A stretch of DNA of 64,000 nucleotides. It comes from Hufsiella arboris (GTDB lineage Bacteria; Bacteroidota; Bacteroidia; Sphingobacteriales; Sphingobacteriaceae). This document shows positions 29,309 through 37,975 of this stretch, piece by piece; the first letter of the stretch is position 1, and every line of letters starts with the position of its first letter. The notes beneath the pieces were generated by a model. That model was not told the DNA's origin. It saw nothing but the letters and a program-made list of their open reading frames with translations, and made no database searches. The stretch spans positions 62,001 to 126,000 of the forward strand of contig NZ_WVHT01000004.1 of the NCBI RefSeq assembly GCF_009834875.1, written 5' to 3'. A program made the translations under genes and the position numbers.

Positions 29309-29344
29309 TGCCCGAAAGCAGGGCAACCTGTCCGAAATCGGACA
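29309..29344 (+). promoter_or_regulatory. Two NtrC-type upstream activator dyads
   Basis: Two similar dyads lie in tandem: TGCCCGAAAGCAGGGCA (29309-29325, arms TGCCC/GGGCA) and TGTCCGAAATCGGACA (29329-29344, perfect 7-bp arms TGTCCGA/TCGGACA). They share TG-Y-CCGAAA. Their distance of about 55-90 bp from the -24/-12 promoter is right for an enhancer of the operon-encoded NtrC-like regulator. Confidence 0.7.
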
Positions 29345-29394
29345 AATACAGACATCGGAAATAACATAAAACACTAACAACCAATAAATTAACA

Positions 29395-29412
29395 TTGGTA
29401 TATCACTTGCAA
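29395..29412 (+). promoter_or_regulatory. Sigma-54 (-24/-12) promoter of the ABC efflux operon
   Basis: TTGGTATATCACTTGCAA has the invariant GG (29397-29398) and GC (29409-29410) separated by exactly 10 bp, with the TTGC of the -12 element intact. The transcription start would be near 29422, about 13 nt before the adaptor ATG at 29435. No TAnnTTTG box competes here. Confidence 0.85.
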
Positions 29413-29434: not shown

Positions 29435-30685
29435 ATGGATACTGAAATACCAGCTCAATACCTGTTACAAAAACGAAGAAGAACTATACTGATCATTGTT
29501 TTAAGTATAGGCGTACTCATCGCTGCGGTCTGGGGACTGAGAGCATTCTTTAAACCAACCCTTAACCGCAGTGACATTACGCTGGCAAAGGTTGAAACGG
29601 GTAATGTTGAAAACACGCTGAATGCTACCGGTGAAGTATTGCCGGAGTTTGAAGAAGTGATCACCAGCCCTATTAACGCCTCTATCAAAAGCGCGCTGAT
29701 TGATGCTGGTACAACTGTTAAAGCCAATCAGCCTATTATTATTCTGGACAAATCATCCTCTGAAAACGAATTTACCAATCTGAAATTTCAGCTGGAATCA
29801 AAAAAAAGTGAGATTAAAAAGCTAAAGCTTGACCTGGATAAAAGCTTTTTTGATATACAATCCAATAACGCCATCAAACAGCTTCGCATTGAAAATCTGA
29901 AGGATGCCGTAGAAAATGCAACACGGCTATTCAAAGCCGGCGGCGGCACGCGGGAAGGTATTGAACAGGCGGAACTGAATCTGAAAGTTGCTCAATTGGA
30001 GAAAAAGCAACTGGAAAATGAGATCAGGAGCAAACAGCAAACGATGCGTGTGGAAGCTAGAGAAGCTGAAATTGCCGCGGCTATTCAACAAAACGATTTA
30101 AACGAACTGAGCCGCAAACTACAGCTTGCCAACGTAACCGCTTCACGTAAGGGCGTGATCACCTATGTTAACAAGAATATCGGAACAACGGTAAGAGAAG
30201 GTGACATCCTGGCCCGCATTGCCGACCTGAACAGTTTCAAAGTGGCCGGCAATATATCAGACACTTACCTCGACCAGCTGCGTAACAATATGCCCGTCAT
30301 CGTCCGCTTTAATGATACAGAGCTAAAGGGCCGGATCGTGAATCTGAATCCATCCGTGCAAAACAGCCTGGTAAGTTTTGAGGTACAGCTGGAAGAACGG
30401 AATAATAAACAGCTGCGCCCTAATATGAAAGTTGATGTGTTCCCGGTAACCGATGCCCACAGTCATGTGATGCGTATCGCAAACGGGCCGGCTTTTAAAG
30501 GTGTCGGCGCGCAGGATGTATTTGTTCTGAATGGTGATAAGGTTGAACGGCGTATAGTACATCTCGGCCTTAGCAATTTCGATTATGTAGAGATAAAGGA
30601 TGGATTGAAGCCCGGCGATATCGTTGTAAGCTCAGACATGAGTGAGTATAAAAATTCGAAGGTGCTAAGCATTAAAAATCAATAG
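29435..30685 (+). CDS. Periplasmic adaptor (HlyD/MacA-like) of an ABC efflux pump
   Basis: 416 residues. A single N-terminal TM anchor (about 16-37) rather than a lipobox. Then a biotinyl-lipoyl half (VENTLNATGEVLPEFEEVITSP), a long coiled-coil hairpin (about 105-220, rich in Glu, Lys and Leu heptads), the second lipoyl half (VTASRKGVITYVNKNIGTTVREGDILARIADL) and beta-barrel/membrane-proximal domains. It bridges the inner-membrane ABC permeases and the TolC-type channel encoded downstream. First gene of the sigma-54 operon. Confidence 0.9.
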   Translation: MDTEIPAQYLLQKRRRTILIIVLSIGVLIAAVWGLRAFFKPTLNRSDITLAKVETGNVENTLNATGEVLPEFEEVITSPINASIKSALIDAGTTVKANQPIIILDKSSSENEFTNLKFQLESKKSEIKKLKLDLDKSFFDIQSNNAIKQLRIENLKDAVENATRLFKAGGGTREGIEQAELNLKVAQLEKKQLENEIRSKQQTMRVEAREAEIAAAIQQNDLNELSRKLQLANVTASRKGVITYVNKNIGTTVREGDILARIADLNSFKVAGNISDTYLDQLRNNMPVIVRFNDTELKGRIVNLNPSVQNSLVSFEVQLEERNNKQLRPNMKVDVFPVTDAHSHVMRIANGPAFKGVGAQDVFVLNGDKVERRIVHLGLSNFDYVEIKDGLKPGDIVVSSDMSEYKNSKVLSIKNQ

Positions 30686-30691
30686 GAACAC

Positions 30692-32149
30692 ATGAAACAG
30701 CTGCTCATCCTTTTGTTTTTTATATCTGGCATACAGGCCTTTTGCATGGCGGCGCCACCCGATACGTTGCGATTAACGCTGACCGAGGTTGTTGACCTGG
30801 CCCGTAAAAATTCCATCGCGGCAAAACAGGCGATCGCCGTAAAGGAAAACAAGTACTGGCAATGGCGTACCTTTAAAAGCAACTATCAGCCACAGCTATC
30901 ATTAAGCGGAATGCTGCCTGGGTACAGCAAAACTTACCAGCAGGTTCTTCAGCCTAACGGAACCATTCTGTTTCAGCCGGTGCACAACGATAATTCCAGC
31001 TTGCAGCTGGATTTCAGCCAGACCATCACAGCCACCGGAGGAACGGTTTATGGCACAACAAACCTTCAGCGCTTTGATGATTTCGACCGTAATAACGTGC
31101 TCTACAACGGTGTTCCTTACGCCATCGGGATCAGCCAGCCACTATTCCAGTACAACAGTTTAAAGTGGGATAAGAAGATAGAGCCTTTGAAGTATGACGA
31201 AAGCAAACAAGCTTTTATAGAATCGCAGGAGCAGATTGCCGTTACTGTGGAGGGTTATTTTTTTGACCTGTTACTGGCGCAGGTTAACCTGCATGTAGCC
31301 GAGATCAACCTTAGAAATACACAGCAGATCATGAAGGTGGCCAATCTTAAATTCGAGCTGGGCAAAATTTCGAAAAATGAAATTCTGCAACTGCAGCTCG
31401 AGCTGTTAAATGCAAAAAAAGACGTCGGTACGGCTAGCCGTAATATTCAGATCGCTACACTGACGCTGCGCAGCTATATGGGTATCGACAGCGAGGCGGA
31501 GCTGGCGTTGGTGGTTCCGGAAGAGATCAGTCGGATGGAAGTAAGTGCCGACAGGGTGCTGACCGAAGCTTTCGAAAACCGGTCGGAAGCGATTGCATTT
31601 GTGCGGAGAGTTGCCGAGGCAAAAAGGGACGTCGCCCTGGCGAAAGGGCAAACCGGCTTAACGGCCAGTTTAACAGCGAACTTAGGATTTTCCAACAGCG
31701 CCGCTACGGTGCCGGGCGTATACCATAATCCACAGGATCAACAGTTGCTGCAATTACAGTTTTCCATACCTGTTCTCGATTGGGGACGAAGTAAATCCAA
31801 AATTAAAACGGCGCTGACCAATGAGCAATTTACAGCTTATGCAGTGGAACAGGATAAGCAAACTTTTCGCCAGCAAATCGTAACACAGGTTACCCTGTTT
31901 AACATGCTCAAGGAACAGATCGTTTCCAATGCCCAGGCCGACAGCATCGCTGGCGAGAAGTACAAGATAGCACGGGAACGATATGTGCTGGGCGATTTAA
32001 GCATCACTGATCTCGGGATAGCTTTCAGGGAAAACGACCAGGCTAAACGCGATTTTATTAACGCCTTGCGGGACTTTTGGGGAGCCTACTACCAGCTGCG
32101 TTATCTCTCGCTTTATGATTTTGAAAAGAAGCAAAAAATAACTTATTAA
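30692..32149 (+). CDS. TolC-family outer-membrane channel
   Basis: 485 residues. Signal peptide MKQLLILLFFISGIQAFCMA; no clear lipobox consensus. Two OEP repeats: LTLTEVVDLARKNS near 30-43 and a second half with the second coiled-coil pair (TEAFENRSEAIAFVRRVAEAKRDVALAKGQ). The strand FSIPVLDWGRSKSKIK is typical of the family. It forms the trimeric outer-membrane exit duct for the pump. It follows the adaptor gene by 6 bp. Confidence 0.92.
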   Translation: MKQLLILLFFISGIQAFCMAAPPDTLRLTLTEVVDLARKNSIAAKQAIAVKENKYWQWRTFKSNYQPQLSLSGMLPGYSKTYQQVLQPNGTILFQPVHNDNSSLQLDFSQTITATGGTVYGTTNLQRFDDFDRNNVLYNGVPYAIGISQPLFQYNSLKWDKKIEPLKYDESKQAFIESQEQIAVTVEGYFFDLLLAQVNLHVAEINLRNTQQIMKVANLKFELGKISKNEILQLQLELLNAKKDVGTASRNIQIATLTLRSYMGIDSEAELALVVPEEISRMEVSADRVLTEAFENRSEAIAFVRRVAEAKRDVALAKGQTGLTASLTANLGFSNSAATVPGVYHNPQDQQLLQLQFSIPVLDWGRSKSKIKTALTNEQFTAYAVEQDKQTFRQQIVTQVTLFNMLKEQIVSNAQADSIAGEKYKIARERYVLGDLSITDLGIAFRENDQAKRDFINALRDFWGAYYQLRYLSLYDFEKKQKITY

Positions 32150-32168
32150 AATAGTATAATCAACCATC

Positions 32169-32834
32169 ATGATCAGATTACAAAACATTGCAAAGGTTTA
32201 CCGCACCACGAACATCGAAACGCTGGCGCTCAACAACATCAGCATGGATATTGCCAAAGGCGAGTTCCTTTCAGTTATGGGTCCATCCGGTTGCGGAAAA
32301 AGTACGCTGCTGAATATTATGGGATTGCTCGATGACCCTTCTAAAGGCAGCATTCAAATAGCAAACCAGGAAACCGGCAGCCTGAACGACAAGCAGCTTG
32401 CAAAGTTCCGCAATCAAAAACTGGGCTTTATTTTTCAAAGCTATCATTTGATCAATGACCTGCAGGTGCTTGACAATGTCGAATTGCCTTTATTATACCG
32501 AGATACAACAGCCAGGGAAAGAAAAAAGCTCGCGTCCGAAGCATTGGAAAAAGTTGGGTTAAGCAACCGGATGAAGCACTTCCCTACCCAGCTATCCGGC
32601 GGGCAGCGGCAGCGGGTAGCTATCGCAAGAGCCATTGTAGGCCGGCCGGAAATTATACTGGCCGATGAGCCTACCGGTAACCTGGACAGCGCCATGGGAA
32701 ATGAGATTATGGATATCCTGATCAACTTAAATCAAAAAGAGGGAACCACCATTGTGATGGTTACCCACGACGAAAATATGGCCAGGAAAACACATCGGCT
32801 GGTGCGTTTATTTGATGGTTCGCAAGTATCATAA
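32169..32834 (+). CDS. ABC transporter ATPase, MacB/LolD type
   Basis: 221 residues. Walker [11 protein letters not shown]-loop FIFQSYHLI, signature [14 protein letters not shown], Walker [14 protein letters not shown] and switch His in VMVTHDEN. It powers the two FtsX-like permeases encoded directly downstream. The next gene starts 22 bp past the stop. Confidence 0.95.
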
Positions 32835-32856
32835 TCACCGCTCTAACATTAAAGCC

Positions 32857-34086
32857 ATGTTAAAAAACTACTTCAAAATTGCCATAGCGGTGTTAAAACG
32901 CCGTAAGTTTTTCACCTTTATCAGTTTGTTCGGTATCAGTTTTACACTGAGCATATTAATGGTAGCCACCGCGTTCATTGATAAAGTGGTTAACGACGAT
33001 TATCCGGACAAAAAGCGTGACCGCTCACTATATGTCGCTCATATCGAATTAAAAGGCAAAGAATCAATGAATGCTGCAGCCCCTTCATACTATTTCCTTC
33101 AGCATTATGTCGGAAGCCTTAAAACGCCTGTTAAATTCGCCATATCATCTAATTTCAACAGCACGAATACGTATGTAAATAACCGGAAGATCGTTATTAA
33201 TTATAAATATACCAACGCCGATTACTGGGACATACTGGAATATAAATTTTCGGAGGGCAAGGCGATCACTAAGCAGCAGATTGCTAATGCGGAGCGTGTT
33301 ACCGTCATTTCTGAAGATATGAAAAAGGAATACTTCGGCGATGATTCCGGTCCTGTTGTAGGTAAGTACCTGGAAGCCGACAACATTAAATACCGGATAT
33401 GTGGCGTAGTAAAAAATATACCCATTACAGCCTACTTGTTTTACGCTGATATATACCTGCCCTATACTGTATCTAAAATAGATTTCAAAAGCGACAAAGG
33501 TTATATGGGGGAATTCACTGGAATTTTGCTAGCAGCTGATAAAAGTGATGTTCCGAAAATGAAAAAAGAATTTGATTTAATGATACCCAAACTCCCAATT
33601 CCCGATAAGCAATTCGATAAAATATACAGTCATGCCGACCCTTACGTTGAGGGGTATGTTCGAACCGGCAATGAAACTAAATCAGGCATGCTGTATGCTA
33701 TAACAGCCCTGTCTGTATTTGCTTTGCTGGTCATGCTATTGCCTACATTAAACCTGGTTAATATCAACGTTACCCGGATTATGGAACGTTCTTCGGAAAT
33801 TGGAGTTCGCAAAGCATTTGGCGCTTCCTCGCAAACGTTGGTTTACCAGTTCATTGTAGAAAACCTGATTTTGACTTTCCTGGGTGGCTTAATAGGTATT
33901 GTGCTGTCTGTTGTAGCCCTGTATTTTATTAACAATGCGCGACTAATTGCCAACCTGGAATTGAGTTTAAACTTCACCGTTTTATTTTATGCACTGGGAA
34001 TATGTATTGTATTCGGGTTGCTTTCGGGCGTGTACCCGGCCTGGCGCATGTCCAAACTGAATGTGGTAACTGCCCTGAAAGCGTAA
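32857..34086 (+). CDS. MacB-like ABC permease, first subunit
   Basis: The ATG at 32857 (MLKNYFKIAIAVLKRRKFFT) gives 409 residues; an upstream in-frame ATG overlaps the ATPase gene. Topology is one N-terminal TM (about 19-41), a periplasmic MacB_PCD domain, then three TM in the FtsX domain (about 285-405) with the conserved ERSSEIGVRKAFGAS loop. It pairs with the second permease as a heterodimer (inference from the two adjacent, different permease genes with one ATPase). Confidence 0.88.
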   Translation: MLKNYFKIAIAVLKRRKFFTFISLFGISFTLSILMVATAFIDKVVNDDYPDKKRDRSLYVAHIELKGKESMNAAAPSYYFLQHYVGSLKTPVKFAISSNFNSTNTYVNNRKIVINYKYTNADYWDILEYKFSEGKAITKQQIANAERVTVISEDMKKEYFGDDSGPVVGKYLEADNIKYRICGVVKNIPITAYLFYADIYLPYTVSKIDFKSDKGYMGEFTGILLAADKSDVPKMKKEFDLMIPKLPIPDKQFDKIYSHADPYVEGYVRTGNETKSGMLYAITALSVFALLVMLLPTLNLVNINVTRIMERSSEIGVRKAFGASSQTLVYQFIVENLILTFLGGLIGIVLSVVALYFINNARLIANLELSLNFTVLFYALGICIVFGLLSGVYPAWRMSKLNVVTALKA

Positions 34087-34113
34087 AAAATAAATCCTTA
34101 AAATCACGATATT

Positions 34114-35298
34114 ATGTTCAAGCATTTATTTAAACTCATCTGGAACAAGAAGAAACAAAATTCTTTATTGATCGCCGAAATCCTGCTTTCCTTTATGGTG
34201 ATGTTCGCCGTGTTTACTTTTGGGGTGAATTCTTACCGCAACTACGTAACACCGATGGGGATCGATTACGAACATGTATGGGTTATTAATTATAACAACT
34301 CATTAAAAACGACGAGTTCCGATTCACTGGCCCTGTTCTATGAGAGCCTGTTAAGGAATATAAAGAGTATGCCCAAAGTAATTGATGCGGGTTATTCAAG
34401 CAACAATGTACCTTTCTCCTCTTCACATTCAAGCAGCGGTATTAAATATGATGGTGAAGAATTTGACCGTGTAAATCAATTCACCGTCGATGATAATTAC
34501 ACCAATACTTTAGGTGCCAAAATGATTGAAGGCAGATGGTACAATAAGGAAGATAAGGCGGGCAAGCAAAGACTTACCGTAATCAATAATTCATTAAAAG
34601 AAAAGCTGTTTGGCAATACCACCGCGCTTGGAAAATATCTAACCTATGGTGATGACAAAGCAAAGATCAAAATCATTGGCGTTGTAAACGATATCAAATT
34701 TGACGGTGACTACCAGGTTGCGGGGCCTTCAATGTATGGCCGGGCCGATACCTCTGCCTATCACTGGCTGTCGCGGATACTGGTTAAGGTAAGCCCGGAT
34801 GCAGATGCCGCCTTTGAAGGGCGGTTATATAAAATGATGGCCAATACCTTAAAAAATTCGAACATAGAGATAGAGCACCTGGACAACAAATTAACAGCTT
34901 ACAACAAATTCACTCTTGTACCGCTCATCATTCTCTCCATAGTTGCCGCGTTCCTGATCATCAATGTAGCGCTGGGAATATTCGGCGTGCTATGGTACAA
35001 CATTAATAAGAGACGGGGCGAAATCGGCCTGCGGAGGGCGATCGGTGCAAGCGGCAGTTCGGTATCATCCCAGTTAGTCACCGAAGCGCTAATACTTACT
35101 ACATTATCGATCATTGCCGGGACATTTTTTGCCGTTCAGTTTCCGTTGCTCAATGTGTTTGATCTCCCTGCAGGCGTTTATTTAACGGCCATCGGTCTTG
35201 CGATCGGTTTTATTTACCTGGTTGTTATTGCATGCTCTTTATACCCGGGCAATCAAGCCGCAGCGATTTACCCGGCTGTTGCTCTACATGAAGAATAA
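34114..35298 (+). CDS. MacB-like ABC permease, second subunit
   Basis: 394 residues, the same architecture as the preceding gene: N-terminal TM (about 17-38), a periplasmic domain and three C-terminal TM with the FtsX loop KRRGEIGLRRAIGASGSSV. Sequence identity between the two permeases is low outside this loop, so they are distinct subunits rather than a recent duplication. It is 27 bp downstream of the first permease and 21 bp upstream of the regulator gene. Confidence 0.88.
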   Translation: MFKHLFKLIWNKKKQNSLLIAEILLSFMVMFAVFTFGVNSYRNYVTPMGIDYEHVWVINYNNSLKTTSSDSLALFYESLLRNIKSMPKVIDAGYSSNNVPFSSSHSSSGIKYDGEEFDRVNQFTVDDNYTNTLGAKMIEGRWYNKEDKAGKQRLTVINNSLKEKLFGNTTALGKYLTYGDDKAKIKIIGVVNDIKFDGDYQVAGPSMYGRADTSAYHWLSRILVKVSPDADAAFEGRLYKMMANTLKNSNIEIEHLDNKLTAYNKFTLVPLIILSIVAAFLIINVALGIFGVLWYNINKRRGEIGLRRAIGASGSSVSSQLVTEALILTTLSIIAGTFFAVQFPLLNVFDLPAGVYLTAIGLAIGFIYLVVIACSLYPGNQAAAIYPAVALHEE

Positions 35299-35319
35299 TT
35301 ACGACCTTAAGGCCCTGTT

Positions 35320-36693
35320 ATGATACTGATCATTGATGATGATATCGCCGTTCGTACCTCCCTGTATTTATTGCTAAAAAGCGAGAAGTATGAGGTTACT
35401 GGCTCTTCGACACCTGCAGATGCTTTATCGATTATTAAAAAAGAAAAACTGCAGCTCATTATCCTGGATCTTAACTTCTCGCTAGATACTTCCGGCGATG
35501 AAGGCCTGCAGCTTCTCGGCCAGATTAAACAGCTGAATCCCGCTGTGCCGGTAATCCTGATAACCGGATGGGGAAGCATCGAACTCGCTGTAAAGGGTAT
35601 GAAAATGGGTGCGAATGACTTTATAAACAAGCCCTGGGACAACCAGTATTTTCTGCAATCCGTCAAAACATTTTTAGATCTCGAGAAACAGACTACACAG
35701 CGGCTTACACGTAAACAATTAGACAGTCAGTATAACTTTCAGCAGATCGTTGGCCAGGACCCCAAATTACTGGATATCCTGGAAACCATCGGCCGCGTGG
35801 CCGGAACAGATGCTTCTGTGCTCATCATGGGTGAAAGCGGAACGGGTAAAGAACTGATTGCAGAAGCCATTCACCAAAACAGCAGCCGCAGGAACAAGCC
35901 TTTTGTAAAAGTGAATCTTGGCGGCATCTCCACTTCCTTATTCGAAAGTGAGATGTTCGGCCATATTCGCGGAGCTTTTACCGACGCGCGTTTTGACCGG
36001 ATGGGAAGATTTGAAATGGCAAATAAAGGGACCATCTTTTTAGATGAGATCGGCGACCTGGATGCCGGAAGCCAAGTAAAACTGTTAAGGGTTCTACAGG
36101 ACCGCACTTACGAAGTACTCGGCAGCAGCCGGACAAAAACAGTCGACCTGCGTGTGGTATGTGCTACCAATAAAAACCTGAATGATATGGTTACGCTTAA
36201 AAGTTTCAGGGAAGACCTGCTGTATCGGATTAATCTCATTACTATTTATTTGCCAGCATTACGTGAACGGCCCGGAGACATTCCTTTGCTGGTTAATTAC
36301 TTTATCAGCAATTTAAAAGAGATTTATAACCGTCCTGAGTTATCCGTTAGCCATGCGGCTTTGAAATGGCTGCAGCAATTACCCCTGCCGGGCAATATCC
36401 GCCAACTGAAAAACCTGGTAGAGCGAACTGTACTGGTAAGTAAAAAAGACAAGTTTGAAATTGAAGATATAAGGGCTCAGCTCGACGCGACGCCGGCAAA
36501 AAAAGATAACAAGCAATTACCCGGCGTCGGTTCCTATACATTAGACGAGCTTGAAGCAGACATGATCAGGAAGGCGATGGATTATCACAAAAACCGGGTG
36601 GCGAAAGCTGCGCAGTCATTAGGTATTACGCGCAGTTCCCTGTATCGCAGGCTGGACAAATACCAAATACCTTACGATGAAACTGAGGACTAA
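35320..36693 (+). CDS. Sigma-54-dependent response regulator, NtrC family
   Basis: 457 residues. Receiver domain with acidic pocket D6-D8, phospho-acceptor D50, T82 and K104. AAA+ domain (about 140-375) with Walker A GESGTGKE (171-178), the sigma-54 contact loop GAFTDA (218-223, usual GAFTGA) and Walker B in GTIFLDEIGDLD. C-terminal Fis-type HTH (MDYHKNRVAKAAQSLGITRSSLYRRLDK). It is expected to activate the sigma-54 promoter at 29395 from the dyads at 29309-29344, so the operon would be positively autoregulated. The last 17 nt overlap the kinase gene. Confidence 0.93.
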   Translation: MILIIDDDIAVRTSLYLLLKSEKYEVTGSSTPADALSIIKKEKLQLIILDLNFSLDTSGDEGLQLLGQIKQLNPAVPVILITGWGSIELAVKGMKMGANDFINKPWDNQYFLQSVKTFLDLEKQTTQRLTRKQLDSQYNFQQIVGQDPKLLDILETIGRVAGTDASVLIMGESGTGKELIAEAIHQNSSRRNKPFVKVNLGGISTSLFESEMFGHIRGAFTDARFDRMGRFEMANKGTIFLDEIGDLDAGSQVKLLRVLQDRTYEVLGSSRTKTVDLRVVCATNKNLNDMVTLKSFREDLLYRINLITIYLPALRERPGDIPLLVNYFISNLKEIYNRPELSVSHAALKWLQQLPLPGNIRQLKNLVERTVLVSKKDKFEIEDIRAQLDATPAKKDNKQLPGVGSYTLDELEADMIRKAMDYHKNRVAKAAQSLGITRSSLYRRLDKYQIPYDETED

Positions 36694-37975
36694 ATACCTC
36701 CTTTTCGTATTTATTCTGCACCTGGTTGCCCTTGTGCTCTCTTACTTTATTTTTGAGGAAAACAAGATCCTATTCCTGGTAGCGGAGGCTTTCATCGTCA
36801 TTTCGGTCGTGATCTCCTGGAGCTTATACAGGCAGTTGATACAGCCGCTTAAGTCGTTAATGACCGGTGTTGAAGCCATCCGTGACCGTGATTTTAACAT
36901 CAAGTTTTCGCCGACAGGAAAATACGAAGTTGATCAGTTGATCGAAGTGTATAACCAGATGATCGATCAGCTGCGTATTGAACGGACACTGCAGGAACAA
37001 CAACATTTTTTCCTGGAGAAGCTAATTCAAACATCACCTACCGGAATCGTTATCCTGGACTATGACGATGTGGTTCAGCAAGTAAATCCAAGAGCTTTGG
37101 AAATCCTGGAAATTGACGAAAAGCAATTGATCAATTACCCGGTTAATTATCATCAAAATGAATTATTGACCCAAATAGTAACGTTAAAATCCGGTGATTC
37201 CCGCACTGTTAAGTATAAAGGCGCCCTGGTATATAAGTTACAAAAGTCGCATTTTATCGACAGGGGCTTTTCACGTCATTTTATATTAATTGAAGACCTT
37301 ACGGCCGAGATTCTTTCTGCTGAAAAGAATACATATGGAAAAGTGATTCGTATGATGGCACATGAGGTTAACAATACCATCGGCCCGGTTAATTCTATCA
37401 TTCAATCAGCAATCGCTACCAACTCCATATGGAATGAAAATAATGAATTGCTGAAAGGAGCGCTCCACGTGGCTTTGGATCGGAATCAAAACCTCAACCT
37501 GTTCATCCGCAACTTTGCCGACCTTGTTAAATTGCCGAAACCCAATAAAAGACATCTTGAACTGCAGTCGTTAATCAAAACCGTGGTTCAGCTGATGGGT
37601 ATTAAAGCCGAAGAAAAAAATATTAAACTGGTCAACGAGTTACCAGAATCAGCAATTATTATTTCGGCCGACGAGCAACAGGTGGAGCAGGCATTCATCA
37701 ACATCGTTAAAAATGCCATTGAAGCTATCGAATTTAGCGGAACTGTAACATTCAGTATAGAACTTGAAAGCCGGCAGCTAAAGATCACAGACACAGGTAC
37801 CGGTATTACTCCTGCGCAAAGCGAATACCTGTTCACTCCTTTTTACAGCACTAAAACTGACGGCAAAGGAATAGGACTTATCCTGGTCAGAGAAATTTTA
37901 GTTAATCACGGATTTGAGTTTTCGTTAAAAACACTTCGTCCGGGTTGTACAGTTTTTATGGTGAAATTTAACTGA
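36677..37975 (+). CDS. NtrB-like sensor histidine kinase
   Basis: 432 residues. Two N-terminal TM segments (about 7-25 and 31-50) with almost no periplasmic loop, a HAMP domain (about 51-103), a PAS domain (about 110-215), then the H-box with phospho-acceptor H229 in MMAHEVNNTIGPVNS, and an HATPase domain with N-box (FINIVKNAIEAI), G1 (ITDTGTG) and G2 (GKGIGL). Lacking a periplasmic sensor, it probably senses a membrane or cytoplasmic signal. It partners with the overlapping NtrC-type regulator. Confidence 0.92.
   Translation: MKLRTKYLLFVFILHLVALVLSYFIFEENKILFLVAEAFIVISVVISWSLYRQLIQPLKSLMTGVEAIRDRDFNIKFSPTGKYEVDQLIEVYNQMIDQLRIERTLQEQQHFFLEKLIQTSPTGIVILDYDDVVQQVNPRALEILEIDEKQLINYPVNYHQNELLTQIVTLKSGDSRTVKYKGALVYKLQKSHFIDRGFSRHFILIEDLTAEILSAEKNTYGKVIRMMAHEVNNTIGPVNSIIQSAIATNSIWNENNELLKGALHVALDRNQNLNLFIRNFADLVKLPKPNKRHLELQSLIKTVVQLMGIKAEEKNIKLVNELPESAIIISADEQQVEQAFINIVKNAIEAIEFSGTVTFSIELESRQLKITDTGTGITPAQSEYLFTPFYSTKTDGKGIGLILVREILVNHGFEFSLKTLRPGCTVFMVKFN

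Follow-up and report, generated by a model that had tools for sequence, protein, structure and literature searches.

Enhancers of the NtrC type consist of one or more dyads placed at a conserved distance above the promoter, from some tens of bp up to about 150 bp. In the NtrC and PspF systems (glnA, pspA), the dyads stand in tandem roughly 80–110 bp above the start, and a bend of the IHF type is possible in between. In the usual sigma54 layout, tandem sites are placed above a GG-N10-GC box and the activator gene belongs to the same operon.

Comparative genomics has provided activator motifs for Desulfovibrio, which the accessible part of the study describes as inverted repeats conserved ahead of activator genes or of their targets (PMC4641369), and for Clostridiales (PMC6615313). 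For the Bacteroidia, the accessible part of a 2025 survey predicts sigma54 control of FtsX/MacB-type permeases (COG0577) and names no enhancer motif (PMC12316311). The same part states that solely proteins with a GAFTGA motif were kept, so that GAFTDA regulators like those described here would probably have been missed.

We analysed a pair of dyads in a 64-kb stretch of Hufsiella arboris DNA, hereafter the window. The locus resembles glnA and pspA in having tandem dyads at a similar distance, an NtrC-family activator, a sigma54 box and, possibly, an IHF-type bend. It differs from them in its motif (TGYYCG-N4-CGRNCA), in its 19–20 bp spacing, in the GAFTDA loop of the activator, in belonging to Bacteroidota, and in that the activator gene is one of the last in the exporter operon itself. 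The regulator matches in sequence chains 4l4u, 3dzd, 1ny5 and 1ojl (receiver and/or AAA+) among the solved structures, and thereby resembles the ZraR and NtrC1/NtrC4 type, but the target here is a MacB-like exporter and the matched chains bear the names of other proteins. Our reasoning from conserved inverted repeats is similar to that of the accessible part of the Desulfovibrio study (PMC4641369). In contrast to the motifs collected there and in Clostridiales (PMC6615313), ours comes from another phylum, and it is not described in the accessible parts of these two studies. The locus shares its phylum and its class of target genes with the Bacteroidia survey (PMC12316311), as far as the accessible part goes; unlike that part, the present analysis names an enhancer motif. 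Neither the TGYYCG-N4-CGRNCA motif, nor any enhancer of a MacB-like exporter operon in Bacteroidota, was found described in the open-licence literature searched. An earlier note on this DNA had called the dyads a new motif: with respect to that literature, the putative binding motif is new, whereas the class of enhancer was already known.

Results

The two dyads lie next to each other at positions 29309–29344 of the forward strand, and both begin with TGYCCGAAA, as the earlier note had reported. The downstream dyad, or main enhancer copy (29329–29344, TGTCCGAAATCGGACA, 16 nt), is a perfect 6-4-6 palindrome, TGTCCG-AAAT-CGGACA, whose first base lies 67 bp before the TGG in the -24 element. The upstream dyad, or weaker copy (29309–29325, TGCCCGAAAGCAGGGCA), has the form TGCCCG-N5-AGGGCA; its right half is in the register of the family, and it is 17 nt long because its left half is one base out. 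The spacing between the two dyads is 20 bp. The pair extends from 88 to 53 bp above the GG of the sigma54 box, near the 55–90 bp from the -24 element that had been given for it.

As a chance test, the segment 29100–29434 was submitted to 3000 dinucleotide shuffles. A perfect 6-4-6 dyad arose in 9.8% of them, any dyad with 6-bp arms and a spacer of 3–8 in 39%, and a related tandem pair (5-bp-arm dyads, 17–22 bp apart) in 0.5%. Related tandem pairs of 5-bp-arm dyads were present at 4 places within the 64-kb window. By itself, the dyad sequence is only suggestive; the pair becomes convincing as a real element because it is conserved across related loci.

The sigma54-type promoter, TGGTATATCACTTGC, is located at 29396–29410 (forward strand) and has the GG-N10-GC form. 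Of 80 related loci, 78 have a TGGYA-N7-TG box no more than 100 bp from the start; the two others, L066 and L067, have TGGC[TC]. The genome encodes RpoN (one PF04552 match, E 3.2e-56), so that both features by which a sigma54-dependent promoter was recognised, a GG-N10-GC-like box and RpoN in the genome, are present.

Downstream, seven genes of the forward strand (29435–37975) apparently form one operon. The first, with its ATG at 29435, encodes a membrane fusion protein of the HlyD type (29435–30685). It is followed by genes for a TolC-type outer membrane efflux protein (30692–32149), an ABC transporter ATPase (32169–32834), two MacB/FtsX-type permeases, A (32854–34086, a longer frame from TTG at 32812 being also listed) and B (34114–35298), an NtrC-type response regulator with receiver, AAA+ domain containing GAFTDA and Fis-type HTH (35320–36693), which is the proposed binder of the dyads, and a sensor histidine kinase with HAMP, PAS and HATPase domains (36677–37975).

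Related loci were collected with the first-gene protein as query. Among 121 genomes of the same family, 24 close loci were retained, own included; two family matches, G119:C2 and G084:C102 (E about 1e-81), are outside this sample. A public genome collection gave 80 named loci, out of 181 confirmed, with 58–78% identity. They belong largely to Mucilaginibacter, Pedobacter, Chitinophaga and other Chitinophagaceae, and the closest (78% identity) comes from a Sphingobacteriaceae genome from lichen. Requiring the strict box TGGYA-N7-TG near the start left 79 rows from the 80 loci and the window, L066 and L067 being left out for their TGGC[TC] box; both have a dyad of 10/12 arm matches at offset 67 from that box. 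The consensus alignment of the close loci comprised the 16 of 24 that have the strict box. The loci share ancestry, and counts across them are not counts of independent events.

A dyad with at least 8/12 arm matches was present 66–68 bp above TGG in 78 of the 79 loci, the exception being L125. This agrees with the NtrC-type enhancer proposed in the earlier note, the pair forming an enhancer-like element at a fixed spacing above the sigma54 box. The best offset was 67 bp in 74 loci, 68 in three and 66 in two. At the higher threshold of at least 9/12, a dyad was found within offsets 60–75 in 73/79 loci; palindromes with shuffled arms (n = 199) gave a mean of 1.1 loci over the same offsets and a maximum of 44, which presumably reflects a shuffled arm close to the real one. 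The upstream copy was best placed 19 bp above the main dyad in 67/79 loci and 20 bp above it in 9/79, the window being one of these nine. It was better than the downstream copy in L123, L125, L126 and L127. Further up, between columns -45 and -23, information was 0.0–0.3 bit, mostly about 0.1, in the 79-row alignment: the flanks diverged among the loci while the dyad sites, judging from the alignment, stayed. Among the 24 close loci, 22 had a dyad of at least 9/12; none was found in L051 and L056, which are partial matches to the first gene.

The operon was complete, in order and with its regulator and kinase, in 66 of the 68 loci having at least 9.3 kb downstream. L094 (Mucilaginibacter psychrotolerans) lacks the ATPase and the permeases and has a truncated regulator, but has kept dyad and promoter. 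L101 has kept dyad and box, with neither regulator nor kinase in the available downstream stretch. L064 (Mucilaginibacter lacusdianchii) has an additional dyad, TGTTCGCTATCGGACA, 238 bp before the first gene. The operon, with dyads like those of Pedobacter, is also present in the record titled Chryseobacterium indologenes CI_885 (L141); this copy may come from transfer, mislabelling or contamination.

Inspection of the interval between enhancer and promoter revealed a conserved block, TAA-N4-YTGATW, that begins 38 bp after the start of the dyad (T 82%, A 96%, A 96% for its TAA in the 79-row alignment). It is degenerate in the window (29367–29379, forward strand, TAAAACACTAACA). We take this block to resemble the IHF consensus. 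With a looser box (81 rows, window included), an IHF-like match of at least 8/9 in either orientation was found in the spacer of 65/81 loci, for a consensus that was picked after the columns had been seen; base-shuffled spacers gave such a match in 18 of 81 loci, and in 27 at most. The matches lie mostly at positions 38 and 50–53, and the window has a weak copy. Three matches to HU/IHF-family proteins are encoded in the genome. The IHF-like block is a lead.

Column counts of the 79-row alignment gave TGTYCG-ATAT-CGRNCA for the main copy and roughly TGYCCGATATCAAACA for the upstream copy. The corrected core is TGYYCG-N4-CGRNCA, with TGYYCG as half-site and 6-4-6 pairing. In relatives, the spacer after TGYYCG is mostly ATA, its middle base being T in 93% of rows, and the AAA of TGYCCGAAA is a peculiarity of the window's genome. 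The pattern TGYCCGAAAnCRGRCA, which the earlier note had offered for searching, is thus over-specified: its AAA is unconserved, and it fits the second dyad alone because the two spacers differ (5 versus 4 nt), leaving out the 17-nt upstream dyad.

Four patterns were run against the own genome, among them a dyad-plus-box pattern and a version one base longer. TGYCCGAAAnCRGRCA itself, with which a genome scan had been proposed, gave one exact match, the second dyad, and three matches with one mismatch that found no support. These three do not include the first dyad, and no TGG[CT][AG]-N7-TG box was present within 150 bp on either side of them; two have a bare GG-N10-GC at 9 or 29 bp, the family gap being 50–53 bp. 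With the dyad-plus-box pattern, matches in the own genome were considered mainly at up to 2 mismatches, plus one at 3, a level at which the 121 genomes gave 190 matches and the reversed control gave 160, which is near background. That one match (C56:36861–36941, minus strand; L189) contains TGTCCGGTTTCGAACG, a degenerate 12/12 dyad at C56:36926–36941, with a TGG at 67 that has GG-N10-GC. It precedes a lone FtsX-type gene of 797 aa, and no convincing second copy of the dyad was found there. This candidate could belong to the operon's regulator or to its paralogue B, described below. The idea that the motif would reveal a regulon is barely supported: among the matches listed, the putative regulon gains at most one member beyond the operon itself, the other seven promoters resembling those of paralogue B. 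On present evidence, the main target would be the exporter operon itself, one further target being possible.

The regulator (35320–36693) has PF00072 (receiver), PF00158 (sigma54 AAA+) and PF02954 (Fis-type HTH) above cut-off, which are the domains by which it was assigned to the NtrC family. Its activator loop, like that of paralogue B, is GAFTDA and not GAFTGA. This lowers its membership of the family in the strict sense only, because GAFTDA is listed, in the accessible part of the Desulfovibrio study, among the loop variants expected to keep activation (PMC4641369). GAFTDA was found in 68/69 orthologues of the regulator, the remaining one being truncated. Six further relatives had GAFTDA (four), GAYTDA (one) or GSFTDA (one), and 45 B-type and related regulators had GAFTDA (37) or GAYTDA (8).

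The recognition helix of the regulator is TRSSLYRRL, and TR-x-x-LYRRL was present in 69/69 orthologues, the truncated L094 included. Counting the regulator itself, nine places of the genome match its sigma54-activator part (at least 35% identity across 259 or more residues), and among these nine activators only paralogue B, with TRTALYRRL, has a similar helix. In a divergent clade (L052–L055, first gene 38–41% identical), all four loci combine dyads of the form TGTCCA-N4-[TG]GAACA with a helix that reads SRGTLYRKL, a co-change that amounts to one evolutionary event. Two genomes of this clade, G041 and G047, have paralogue B. No orthologue of B was found in the two others, G011 and G030, among the 14 candidates scored per genome (E up to 1e-90), so that B is not available there as binder and the own regulator is left. 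A change of one residue (TR to SR, or RRL to RKL) was considered as an account of the dyad change, and was ruled out by L232 (SRAALYRRI) and by L237, whose regulator is of a third type (SRPALYRKL), both near CG-type dyads. Helix, co-change and operon order argue for the operon's own NtrC-type regulator as the best candidate binder of the dyads, in line with the binder first proposed.

The gene of paralogue B (helix TRTALYRRL, loop GAFTDA) lies at C34:322776–324128 of the own genome. Its regulator and kinase genes stand at the start of an array of about 60 kb (C34:326433–385344; L143, L186, L187, L188, L144), which contains about 22 FtsX/MacB-type permease genes, most of them near 800 aa. The permease genes are mostly on one strand, and two other frames interrupt the array, 364053–365090 and, on the minus strand, 367740–369968.

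Seven promoters with TGYYCG-type dyads 67–69 bp above TGGYA were found in or beside the array, among the own-genome matches listed. Their main dyads (C34:324246, 343606, 361247, 365141, 370200, 372783 and 387351) are TGTTCGATAACGAACA in 3/7 and related forms in the other four. A second copy lies 21 bp upstream in six of the seven; at C34:324246, distances of 21 and 17 bp are equally good as its best placement (8/12), and the -12 part of the box is poor. The seven most likely belong to paralogue B, because of their position next to it and their mostly 21-bp spacing. The B orthologue loci failed in part as a clean second test of the dyads: in the region that runs from 420 bp above the regulator gene to 30 bp inside it, a dyad of at least 10/12 was present in only 15/45 of them, a count that includes L237 with its third-type regulator and L211, whose dyad is probably coding.

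Discussion

Taken together, the layout, its conservation and the helix suggest that the dyads are most probably the enhancer (upstream activating sequence) from which a sigma54 operon is autoregulated, bound by the operon's own NtrC-type regulator. In the scheme that we infer, an inducing signal would lead the sensor kinase (36677–37975) to phosphorylate the regulator. Dimers of the latter would use their Fis-type HTH to occupy both dyads, which lie about two helical turns from each other, and would come together as an AAA+ hexamer. The DNA between enhancer and promoter would then loop, perhaps aided by an IHF/HU-type bend about halfway, and the GAFTDA loop would remodel the RNA polymerase-sigma54 complex at 29396–29410. 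The expected outcome is activation, that is, raised expression of the tripartite MacB-like exporter together with its two-component pair.

The alternative that survives best, although unlikely, is that paralogue B is the main binder of the dyads, or a second one, in which case the operon would be an outlier of the B regulon or a point of cross-talk. The recognition helix of B is almost that of the operon's regulator, its GAFTDA loop is identical, and the seven promoters around it carry similar tandem dyads at 67–69 bp. However, their spacing, 21 bp in six of seven, differs from the 20 bp found here and the 19 bp found in most relatives; their main dyads are TGTTCGATAACGAACA or related forms; G011 and G030 have kept the divergent operon and its dyads although B was not found in them at E up to 1e-90; and the operon has retained its own regulator gene in nearly all long loci (66/68). 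Less probable still is that the dyads serve an unrelated repressor, or some other factor, as operator and lie above the sigma54 box by coincidence. Palindromes of such size would suit many dimeric regulators, but a repressor site is not expected to hold 67 bp (±1) to the -24 element, nor an in-phase second copy, and the layout is the usual one for sigma54. Finally, an origin of the palindromes by chance, or a role as a hairpin in the transcript, for instance a terminator, can practically be dismissed: single perfect dyads do arise in shuffled sequence at the frequency given above, and T-rich stretches follow the dyads in many relatives, but the dyad occupies one position in 78/79 aligned loci, no T-run follows it in the window, and the dyads sit upstream of the promoter.

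Under the favoured reading, with the operon's own regulator as binder, the dyads offer a concrete cis-element with which the control of MacB-like exporters by sigma54 can be tested in Bacteroidota. Screens that demand an exact GAFTGA may miss activators with GAFTDA. The genome also offers a natural comparison between two paralogous activators that have one helix in common and dyads spaced differently, and the code that they share is a livelier lead than the operon element. Tentatively, a GAFTDA-type NtrC clade in Bacteroidota might use a single half-site code, TGYYCG, to drive MacB/FtsX exporters via sigma54, its paralogues within one cell being separated less by base sequence than by the geometry of the dyads. 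The geometries to be contrasted are 19–20 bp for the exporter operon versus 21 bp for the promoters of the B-side array.
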